A stretch of 64,000 nucleotides of DNA from Cyanobacteria bacterium FACHB-502. GTDB taxonomy: Bacteria; Cyanobacteriota; Cyanobacteriia; Elainellales; Elainellaceae. The stretch spans positions 62,001-126,000 of the forward strand of contig JACJNZ010000092.1 in the NCBI GenBank assembly GCA_014695325.1, given 5' to 3'. The translations under genes and the position numbers were made by a program. The notes below the pieces were generated by a model that had not been told where the DNA came from, did not search any database, and worked only from the letters and a program-made list of their open reading frames with translations. Shown in pieces: positions 35,798 through 42,827 of this stretch; position 1 is the first letter of the stretch; every line of letters begins with the position of its first letter.

Positions 35798-36580
35798 ATG
35801 GGCAAGCGCACCGAACGCAACCTGCTAGACATCCTGGTTCAACAGAATTACCTGTTCAAGAATCTGGATAAGAAATGGCTGGCAGCACACCTTCCGGTCG
35901 AGACTCTGGTTGCCGAAAAGATCTATTCCAATCGATTGGTTTACACCGCGTTCCGTCCCGATTCCTACATTGAGGTGCTGTACCTGATTCTGGAAGGCGG
36001 ACCTGTGATTATTCGTAGTGCCCCACTCGATCGCATTATTGCCCTCAGCTATCCGGGCGGCTGTTTTGGGATGCGCAGTTTACCTGTTGGTTATGGCAGT
36101 GCAGGCTATGCGTTTCCCAGCCAAGTTGAAGCATACAAAACGACAAGCGTGATCAAAATTCCGCTCACCGTTTTACAACAGATTTACGAAACAAATGAAA
36201 CCTTCCGCAGTCGCTACGATAAGCTGTTCGAGTTGCGCGAAAAGTTTCAATATCACCTGCTCAATTGCAGCACCTACCCACCTCAAGCTGTAGCATCACT
36301 GCTGCGAGCACTCGTGTATCAGGAACGATCGCTGGGCAATCAACCAAACGGAGAAGGCATTTATACCTTTGATTTACCGATCGACATTATTGCCCGTGCT
36401 TGTCAGTTAAATCATCGCACCGTCGAGCAAGTGATTAAAGGAATGCACAAAGTCGGACTGGTTGAACCCACAAAAGATAGCGATACCTCAAATGATATTT
36501 TGCGCGTGATTGATGCAGAAGGTTTAAAGGAAACCTACAGCGCAACCAGAGATAAAGTATCGTGGTGGCCCCTCAAGTAG
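35798..36580 (+). CDS. Crp/Fnr-like transcription regulator
   Basis: A 260-residue protein. The N-terminal beta-roll is divergent (LYLILEGGPVIIRSAPLDRI, SYPGGCFGMRSLPVGYGSAG), with a long middle helix (TFRSRYDKLFELREKFQYHL) as in Crp proteins, and a C-terminal winged helix including LPIDIIARACQLNHRTVEQV. It lacks the cAMP-binding Arg-Ser pair. It is divergent from the FAD protein and upstream of the ssu region, so it may be the local regulator for sulfur acquisition; this is inference from position. ATG at 35798. Confidence 0.7.
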   Translation: MGKRTERNLLDILVQQNYLFKNLDKKWLAAHLPVETLVAEKIYSNRLVYTAFRPDSYIEVLYLILEGGPVIIRSAPLDRIIALSYPGGCFGMRSLPVGYGSAGYAFPSQVEAYKTTSVIKIPLTVLQQIYETNETFRSRYDKLFELREKFQYHLLNCSTYPPQAVASLLRALVYQERSLGNQPNGEGIYTFDLPIDIIARACQLNHRTVEQVIKGMHKVGLVEPTKDSDTSNDILRVIDAEGLKETYSATRDKVSWWPLK

Positions 36581-39397: not shown

Positions 39398-40015
39398 CTA
39401 ATCCTCAAGCAGAGCTGTTTTGCGGCGATCGATATTCACGATCACAGAAGACGTTGATAGCGTTTTTGCACCCTGCTGCATAGTCTGCACGTCGATTTCT
39501 CGCCAGTCTTTCGGACTCTGGCAGTGATGAGCAACCAGTAATCCCCACAGACGCACCTGCTGATTTGATTCATCTTGCAGCGGAACCAGAATCGGCACGA
39601 CGAGATTCGCTCGTACCTGCATTCCTTTCAGGAAACTCCGATGGCACTCGGCGATCGGTTCAGTGTCAATATCAGATATGGCTCGAACTCTGCCTTTTAG
39701 ATATTGCTCTGCATATTCGCCGTTAAAGCACTCGTCGGGTCCGGTTTCGCCGTAGATGGAATATTTTGTGTCGCTTAGAGCTTCAAAGGTGACGCGCCCT
39801 TCCCATTCTCGATAGAAGTAATAAAGGGCAACGCGATCGACTTGAAGCTGTTCGCGCAATTCGTTGGCTGTTTTTTGGACTAAATCATCGCGCTCAAGAT
39901 TGTGCGACAGCCGTCGAATCAGCTTTTGCAAGCCCTGATCAAAGGAAGTCTCAGACGCAGACGATGAGCGATCGAAACGATTTTGCACAGACTTAATGAT
40001 GGAAAACAGTAACAA
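39398..40015 (-). CDS. Stand-alone DXCF-type cyanobacteriochrome GAF protein
   Basis: A 205-residue protein made of little more than one GAF domain. It has the two cysteine motifs of a DXCF cyanobacteriochrome: GPDECFNGEY (Asp94-x-Cys96-Phe97) and AECHRSFLKGMQVRANLVVP (Cys124-His125), the bilin-attachment Cys-His, then WGLLVAHHCQSPKDW, as in CBCR GAF domains. Such proteins bind phycocyanobilin/phycoviolobilin and switch between blue/teal and green-type states (known). No kinase, GGDEF, HAMP or methyl-accepting domain is attached, so output must come from a partner. The start may be the TTG at 40015 or GTG nearby; N-terminus is uncertain. An unknown gene lies just upstream on the same strand. 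Confidence 0.8.
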   Translation of the reverse strand: MLLFSIIKSVQNRFDRSSSASETSFDQGLQKLIRRLSHNLERDDLVQKTANELREQLQVDRVALYYFYREWEGRVTFEALSDTKYSIYGETGPDECFNGEYAEQYLKGRVRAISDIDTEPIAECHRSFLKGMQVRANLVVPILVPLQDESNQQVRLWGLLVAHHCQSPKDWREIDVQTMQQGAKTLSTSSVIVNIDRRKTALLED

Positions 40016-40111: not shown

Positions 40112-40441
40112 CTATCCGGCAGTTTTTAAAAGCTGATTGAGCTGCTGTACGAGCGGATCGCGCTGCTGTTGCTTAATCCGTTTGTAAGCGATCGCTAAAC
40201 CCATTGCGAGACGGTCTTCGATCGCGGCTGCGGTTTGCTTTGATCGACAGGAATTCGCTAGCTTCTGGTAACTTTCTGCTCGGAACAGCGTGATGACTAA
40301 CTCTTGAAACAATGCTGCATCAAAACAGGAAATCGTTTCCCGCAGTTCTGAGTCAGCAATCAGCAGTTGCTTTGCCTTACAGCGAATGACTGCCCGCATT
40401 GGCTGAATCGGTTGAGCAAGTTCCATAAACTGTCTTTGCAT
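40112..40441 (-). CDS. Hypothetical protein upstream of the GAF photoreceptor
   Basis: A 109-residue protein (ATG at 40441, or 40426) that I do not recognise. It is mostly helical and basic, with MRAVIRCKAKQLLIADSELR and AAIEDRLAMGLAIAYKRIKQ, and has no signal or membrane segment. It precedes the CBCR-type GAF gene by about 96 bases on the same strand and could be co-transcribed with it, so it is a candidate partner; nothing in its sequence shows this. Confidence 0.5.
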   Translation of the reverse strand: MQRQFMELAQPIQPMRAVIRCKAKQLLIADSELRETISCFDAALFQELVITLFRAESYQKLANSCRSKQTAAAIEDRLAMGLAIAYKRIKQQQRDPLVQQLNQLLKTAG

Positions 40442-40856
40442 TTGAAAGAATGCTGTGAAGTATATCGTCTTACCAAAATCAGACTCAATCTTCTCGCGAT
40501 AGATCTAAGAGATCTCAACCTGTAGCAAAGGAGGGAGATTTGAATCGAGTGCTATTCAGATCTCGATTGCGACTTTTCAAATAGGCTCTGCCGGGCTGCT
40601 CGCACCGGTTAATGTCTCCTCACTTTAGGTTGAGGATGAGCGTTAGACATGACTAATGCCGATTAGTTTAGCCAATGCAACTTTACAATCTGCCAAACGC
40701 AAAACCTAATTCTCTGCTGCGTTCAGAACTTGAAGAATCCCTAATTAATTGACTCAAAAGGGACACCAGCCCAGTATGTTTTTAGATCGGGGCACTGCGG
40801 GCAAGACTCTAACTGTCCCAGCTTCGGCATTTTATTGCGTTTATTTTAGATGCGCT
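40442..40856. other. Intergenic region upstream of acs, with a hairpin
   Basis: No gene seen. At about 40612-40650 ATGTCT pairs with AGACAT and CCTCA with TGAGG around the loop CTTTAGGT, a stem-loop that may be a regulatory element in the acs leader or a terminator-like structure without a T-run. An open frame in phase with acs extends left, but the Acs family starts at 40857. Confidence 0.35.
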
Positions 40857-42827
40857 ATGAGTGAATCCACGATCGAATCCATTCTGCAAGAAAATCGTTT
40901 ATTCCCCGCGACTGCCGCATTTGCCCAGCAGGCCCAGATCAAGAGCTTGGAGGAATACCAGCAGCTCTATGATCGCGCCAAAGCTGACCCAGAAGCGTTT
41001 TGGGCAGAACTGGCAGAACAGGAGCTGCACTGGTTTCAAAAGTGGGACAAAGTGCTGGACTGGCAGCCACCGTTTGCCAAGTGGTTTGTGAATGGCAAAA
41101 TTAATATCTCCTACAACTGCCTCGATCGCCACCTGACCACCGAGCGACGCAACAAAGCTGCGCTGATCTGGGAAGGCGAACCGGGCGATTCGCGCACGCT
41201 CACTTATGCCCAGCTTCATCGGGAGGTCTGTCAATTTGCCAATGTGCTGAAGCAGTTGGGCGTGAAAAAGGGCGATGTAGTGGGCATTTATATGCCGATG
41301 ATTCCCGAAGCAGCGATCGCGATGCTTGCCTGTGCCCGAATTGGTGCGCCGCATACAGTGGTGTTTGGCGGATTTAGTGCGGATGCCCTGCGCGATCGGC
41401 TCAACGACGGCAAAGCAAAGCTGGTGATCACCGCAGACGGAGGGTGGCGGAAAGATGCGATCGTGCCCCTCAAAGAACAGGTGGATAAAGCACTGGCAAA
41501 TGGGGCGGCTCCAAGCGTGGAAAACGTGCTGGTGGTGCAGCGAACGGCGCAATCGATTCAAATGGAACCCGGACGCGATCACTGGTGGCATGACCTGCGT
41601 CCGAATGCTTCGGCAGACTGTCCCGCAGAGCCGATGGACAGCGAGGATATGCTGTTTATTCTCTATACGTCGGGCAGTACGGGCAAACCGAAGGGCGTGG
41701 TTCACACCACGGGCGGCTACAACCTCTACACCCACATAACCACCAAGTGGATCTTTGATCTGCGCGATACGGATGTTTACTGGTGTACGGCAGATGTGGG
41801 CTGGATCACCGGACACAGCTATATCGTTTATGGTCCATTGTCGAACGGGGCAACCACGCTGATGTATGAAGGTGCGCCGCGTCCCTCTAATCCGGGCTGC
41901 TTCTGGGATGTGATCGAGAAGTACGGCGTGAATATTTTCTATACGGCTCCCACGGCGATTCGGGCGTTTATCAAAGCGGGGGAAGAGATACCGAATGCTC
42001 GCAATCTGTCTTCGCTGCGGCTTCTAGGAACGGTGGGCGAACCCATTAACCCCGAAGCCTGGATGTGGTATCACCGTGTGATTGGCGGCGAACGCTGTCC
42101 GATCGTCGATACGTGGTGGCAAACCGAGACGGGTGGTATCATGATCTCCCCGCTTCCGGGTGCCATTCCGGCAAAACCGGGTTCTGCAACTCGTCCGTTC
42201 CCCGGCATTCTGGCAGAGATCCTCGATCTGGAGGGCAATTCGGTTCCGGCCAATGAAGGCGGCTATCTAGCAGTCAAGCACCCCTGGCCTGGCATGATGC
42301 GAACGGTCTACGGCGACCCCGATCGCTTCCGACGCACCTACTGGGAACACATTCCGCCGCGAGAGGGCAACTACTTCTACTTCGCAGGTGACGGGGCACG
42401 GCAGGATGAAGACGGCTATTTCTGGGTGATGGGTCGTGTGGATGACGTGATCAACGTGGCAGGACACCGCCTGGGCACGATGGAAATTGAGTCTGCGCTG
42501 GTGTCTCATCCTGCTGTGGCAGAAGCCGCTGTCGTCGGCAAACCCGATGAGCTAAAGGGAAGCGAAGTCGTCGCCTTTGTCACCCTGGAAGGAACCCACT
42601 CGCCCAGCCCAGAACTCGCTGCCGAACTGAAAAAGCACGTCGGTCAGGAAATTGGCGCGATCGCCCGTCCAGGAGAAATTCGCTTCAGCGATGCCTTGCC
42701 CAAAACGCGATCGGGCAAAATCATGCGGCGACTCTTGCGCTCTCTGGCAGCTGGCGAAGAAGTTTCTGGCGATACTTCAACCCTGGAAGATCGATCGGTC
42801 TTGGACAAGCTGCGGCAGGGAGTTTAG
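40857..42827 (+). CDS. acs: Acetyl-CoA synthetase
   Basis: A 656-residue AMP-forming acetate-CoA ligase of normal length. ATG at 40857 ([20 protein letters not shown]) gives the family's N-terminus. Motifs: [36 protein letters not shown], the P-loop-like [56 protein letters not shown] (acetate pocket with the Trp), [20 protein letters not shown] (hinge and CoA) and near the end [13 protein letters not shown], whose Lys is the acetylation-regulated catalytic one. It activates acetate for central metabolism in the cytosol. A + strand terminator lies about 215 bases after the stop. Confidence 0.97.

Follow-up and report, generated by a model that had tools for sequence, protein, structure and literature searches.

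Nearly every cyanobacteriochrome described has been investigated as a domain excised from a kinase, cyclase or chemoreceptor. A gene that encodes one GAF domain only, and that carries both the DXCF and the Cys-His cysteines of this photoreceptor class, raises the questions of (i) whether it is a complete gene; (ii) what kind of photoswitch its product would be; and (iii) which protein reads a light-switched GAF domain in trans. We considered these questions for such a gene in the window, i.e., the 64,000-nucleotide stretch of a contig from Cyanobacteria bacterium FACHB-502 analyzed here.

The open reading frame on the minus strand at 39398–40015 was confirmed as 205 residues long when read from a TTG codon, and the original prediction of a single GAF domain with DECF and ECH and no output domain holds: Pfam detects one domain only (GAF, PF01590; 71.2 bits, residues 42–187), and both motifs were located, DECF at 39725–39736 and the Cys-His pair of ECH at 39641–39646, both on the minus strand. 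On sequence grounds, the true start is more likely the GTG at 39988, since the two closest relatives retain the VQNRFDRS that follows it, and numerous orthologues begin at the matching valine or methionine; the first nine residues of the 205-residue version are probably not translated. The resulting gene (39398–39988, minus strand), our preferred reading given the open frame, the conserved start, the Pfam domain and the AlphaFold model, would encode 196 residues; in this numbering, used below, the DECF cysteine is Cys87 and the ECH cysteine Cys115. Upstream, an in-frame stop codon falls a few codons before the TTG and limits the open frame to about 210 codons; downstream lies a convergent dnaN gene. 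The GAF frame therefore does not belong to a longer one.

A contig scan with the GAF protein as query returned 21 relatives (50–62% identity). Of these, 20 are complete proteins that consist of a single free-standing GAF domain and contain motifs resembling GPDECFNGEYA and CHRDFLR. In Tychonema sp. LEGE 07203 (locus L029, 5974–6318), the orthologue is cut off after its DECF half, before the canonical cysteine, and this copy is a probable pseudogene in one lineage. Among 386 cyanobacterial genomes sampled across the phylum, 57 contain an orthologue, essentially one per genome, at a cut-off of E ≤ 3e-40 and at least 45% identity; every match lies in an open frame of 165–213 residues. The next matches, starting at E = 1e-38 and with at most 45% identity, are found inside proteins of approximately 380–2200 residues. 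Within the family to which the window's genome belongs, the orthologue is present in 17 of 36 genomes, in a single copy and in frames of 179–236 residues, and the profile scores of these free-standing GAF domains (246–281 bits) are well separated from those of multi-domain GAF domains (at most 184 bits). Overall, the free-standing orthologues occupy open frames of 165–236 residues, and no member is fused to another domain.

In a maximum-likelihood tree of 60 free-standing GAF domains, 33 multi-domain GAF domains and three solved ones, all of the free-standing domains form one clade (100/100 support) with a long stem, apart from the multi-domain GAF domains; as the multi-domain GAF domains were few and had been selected for their resemblance to the query, the tree speaks to the coherence of the family and not to its exact sister group. 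The gene is thus neither a truncated remnant nor an exception, but one copy of an old family that many cyanobacteria maintain in free-standing form, and the rarity that the original prediction implied for a free-standing photoreceptor of this kind gives way to a widespread family. In the open-access literature searched, we found no paper naming a stand-alone or single-domain cyanobacteriochrome family, and a widespread, always free-standing orthologous family seems not to have been spelled out in the papers searched. A conserved, naturally single-domain family would provide a natural photoswitch about 165 residues long.

Both cysteines are kept in all 60 orthologues, which argues against a chance occurrence of the DECF and ECH motifs. 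Within the DXCF motif, cysteine and phenylalanine are invariant (60/60 each) and aspartic acid is nearly so (56/60), while the histidine that follows the canonical cysteine is invariant along with several arginine, tryptophan, tyrosine and histidine residues; in alignment numbering, the invariant positions include both cysteines, Phe102, Arg114, His130, Trp162 and Trp176. A second set of residues is typical of the free-standing family and uncommon in multi-domain GAF domains, namely Arg47, Tyr71 and Tyr73 (within YYFY), Thr81, Gly97, Asn103 (within DECFN) and Ile126 in the same numbering; these residues may outline a pocket or partner surface peculiar to the family. Codon comparisons indicate that the gene is under purifying selection and its protein maintained: dN/dS is approximately 0.08 against a genome of the same genus (G386) and approximately 0.08–0.11 in comparisons with the two nearest relatives, where synonymous sites are close to saturation; other pairs range from 0.03 to 0.4.

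An AlphaFold2 model built from the family alignment (pLDDT 90.1, pTM 0.83) shows the whole GAF core together with a long helix at the N-terminus. The top matches of this model in a Foldseek search of the PDB are cyanobacteriochrome GAF domains (miRFP670nano; 6oap, from a dual sensor kinase; TePixJ, 4fof and 4glq; and RcaE), and the nearest solved chains, by sequence as well as by fold, all belong to bilin-binding cyanobacteriochrome GAF domains. The GAF domain of the protein is of the bilin type and no PHY domain accompanies it; the protein also has the canonical Cys115-His116 pair, which is also aligned with the Cys-His of 6oap, and a second cysteine within Asp-Xaa-Cys-Phe. These are sequence features expected of a cyanobacteriochrome of the DXCF subfamily. 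A close parallel is the blue/green DXCF domain of TePixJ (PDB 3vv4, 4fof, 4glq), which has the same fold (TM-scores by target of 0.82 for 4fof and 0.85 for 4glq) and the two cysteines at the same profile positions, DPCF aligning with DECF and ECH with ECH. However, the TePixJ domain is part of a methyl-accepting phototaxis receptor, is about 32% identical to the window's GAF domain, and lacks the clade-specific YYFY and DECFN residues. The closest multi-domain relatives by score, the DXCF GAF domains of DDCFSGEYAHLY type (loci L131, L132 and L133), likewise contain DDCF and Cys-His, but they reside in proteins of about 600–940 residues and fall outside the free-standing clade. RcaE, although the best single-sequence match in the PDB, lacks the DXCF cysteine; membership of the window's protein in the green/red (RcaE/CcaS) subfamily was rejected, as RcaE has PQEVF in place of DECF and branches elsewhere in the tree. 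The predicted class, a free-standing cyanobacteriochrome of the DXCF type, is supported by the aligned motifs and by orthologues that are all free-standing.

In characterized DXCF proteins, the canonical cysteine holds the bilin, while the DXCF cysteine forms a reversible bond to C10 and promotes the formation of phycoviolobilin; the dark state absorbs blue light, and the photoproduct is usually green- or teal-absorbing (PMC11284453, PMC5578081). By analogy, Cys115 would attach phycocyanobilin covalently, and Cys87 would provide a second, light-labile thioether to bilin C10 in the dark state and probably drive isomerization to phycoviolobilin. The dark state would be expected to absorb at approximately 400–430 nm and the photoproduct in the green or teal; blue light would break the second bond and isomerize the 15,16 double bond, and the altered GAF surface or dimer state would be read by a separate protein. 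Not every DXCF sequence gives a blue/green cycle; teal and orange photoproducts, among others, have also been described (PMC5578081).

We consider it about 75% probable that the gene encodes a free-standing DXCF-type dual-cysteine photoswitch with a blue-absorbing dark state that signals in trans. For this reading, the fold, the cysteines, their conservation, the free-standing state and the selection on the gene were computed, and bilin binding and the photocycle are transferred from the characterized DXCF proteins. Signaling in trans follows from the absence of an output domain in every orthologue, so that the original prediction was presumably right in stating that a freestanding GAF domain must act through a partner. 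Alternatively, light could alter the oligomeric state of the protein and the signal be read out in this way, as happens with short LOV proteins. These proteins and photoactive yellow protein each consist of a lone photosensory domain without an output domain, and are alike in principle to the free-standing GAF domain, although their folds and chromophores are unrelated. More tentatively, an old, essentially single-copy blue/green photoswitch could deliver a trans-acting light signal to a common partner encoded elsewhere in these genomes, a proposal that we regard as plausible but somewhat less than an even bet; in the openly available papers that were searched, we found no such trans-acting mode established for cyanobacteriochromes.

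Clustering the neighborhoods of 60 loci revealed no conserved partner gene across the family, the contexts being lineage-specific only, and promoter and terminator scans gave no operon signals better than those of shuffled sequences. In the window, the neighbors are dnaN and acs. In 13 genomes of family f6, which we take to be Nostocaceae, ndhH lies directly upstream of the GAF gene on the same strand, and in 12 a Methyltransf_28 gene lies downstream. In family f13, petH and an OmpR-type regulator are found near the GAF gene; at two loci (L130, 7235–10022, and L129) it is situated between petH, which encodes a CpcD-linked ferredoxin-NADP reductase, and the response regulator gene, all on the same strand. 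Other contexts include chlI at three loci and a coaBC-like gene in Chamaesiphon.

Since ndhH of Nostoc (Anabaena) sp. PCC 7120 is alr3355 (PMC8147232), and alr3356 is numbered directly after it, the place that the GAF gene occupies in the 13 f6 genomes, Alr3356 is, by this synteny, very probably the orthologue. It differs from the window's gene in lying next to ndhH. Alr3356 has been reported as a cyanobacteriochrome, expression of its gene rises 3.94-fold once furA is switched off, and FurA binds the promoter in vitro (PMC4788461); that report cites Ma et al. (2012, FEBS J 279:4095), whose subject is seven GAF domains that bind bilin and absorb blue light. Hence, the window's gene is not the first of its group: a probable orthologue in Nostoc has already been described both as a cyanobacteriochrome and as a FurA-repressed gene. 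FurA control of alr3356 would tie the free-standing GAF domain to iron and redox state.

This regulation, together with the missing output domain and the ability of DXCF GAF domains to isomerize phycocyanobilin to phycoviolobilin (PMC11284453), is also consistent with a bilin-handling protein rather than a signal transducer, be it a phycoviolobilin former or a sink for free bilin or blue light, e.g., under iron or redox stress. We regard this as unlikely, because the bilin is covalently attached in the cyanobacteriochrome class, which makes catalytic turnover improbable, and because the photocycle residues are invariant, which a mere sink would presumably not require.

Signaling by a photoswitch remains the preferred reading, and its target could in principle be suggested by the f6 context. 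Human NDUFAF7 methylates NDUFS2, the NdhH homologue, and the GAF protein might act, with ndhH and the NDUFAF7/MidA-like product of the Methyltransf_28 gene, on the assembly or activity of NDH-1 (complex I) in these presumed Nostocaceae. Despite the recurrent gene order in f6, we give this little credence, as the ndhH context is absent from the other families, including that of the window. Moreover, a gap of approximately 0.3–0.7 kb separates the end of ndhH from the GAF gene, and FurA binds a promoter belonging to the probable Nostoc orthologue itself, so the co-location may be a matter of history only.

The original prediction had put forward the gene just upstream in the window (40112–40441, minus strand) as a candidate signaling partner. 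Its 109-residue product has no Pfam or NCBIfam match above cut-off, and the gene is under purifying selection (dN/dS approximately 0.07 against G386); of the related genomes searched within the window's family, about half have it. A dedicated partner expressed from the same transcript would fit its position, on the same strand and about 100 bp from the GAF gene, and this adjacency is kept in G386 and G391. However, the two genes adjoin only in these genomes and that of the window; they lie on different contigs in four genomes (G389, G392, G395 and G400), the 109-residue gene occurs without the GAF gene in three (G393, G011 and G394) and the GAF gene without the 109-residue gene in two (G396 and G401), and the two are never neighbors in the other families looked at. 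Given this dissociated distribution, the proposed partnership was not upheld, and we consider it very unlikely.

Finally, that the frame derives from a larger photoreceptor gene broken by frameshift, truncation or pseudogene formation, the outcome that the original prediction had itself named as telling against it, can be dismissed almost entirely, for although most cyanobacteriochrome GAF domains sit in large proteins, and all but about five of the 104 GAF-domain matches in this 6.6-Mb genome are in frames of at least 380 residues, nearly all of them within large multi-domain proteins, the free-standing orthologues, their single clade and their dN/dS values refute it, and the gene is flanked by convergent dnaN and the 109-residue gene, with no output-domain frame alongside.

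Two further features of the window were recorded. A 260-residue protein encoded at 35798–36580 reads like a Crp-type regulator, with no Pfam match at E ≤ 0.001. The listed TTG start of the acetyl-CoA synthetase-like open reading frame at 40749–42827 is probably too far upstream, and an in-frame ATG fits better.
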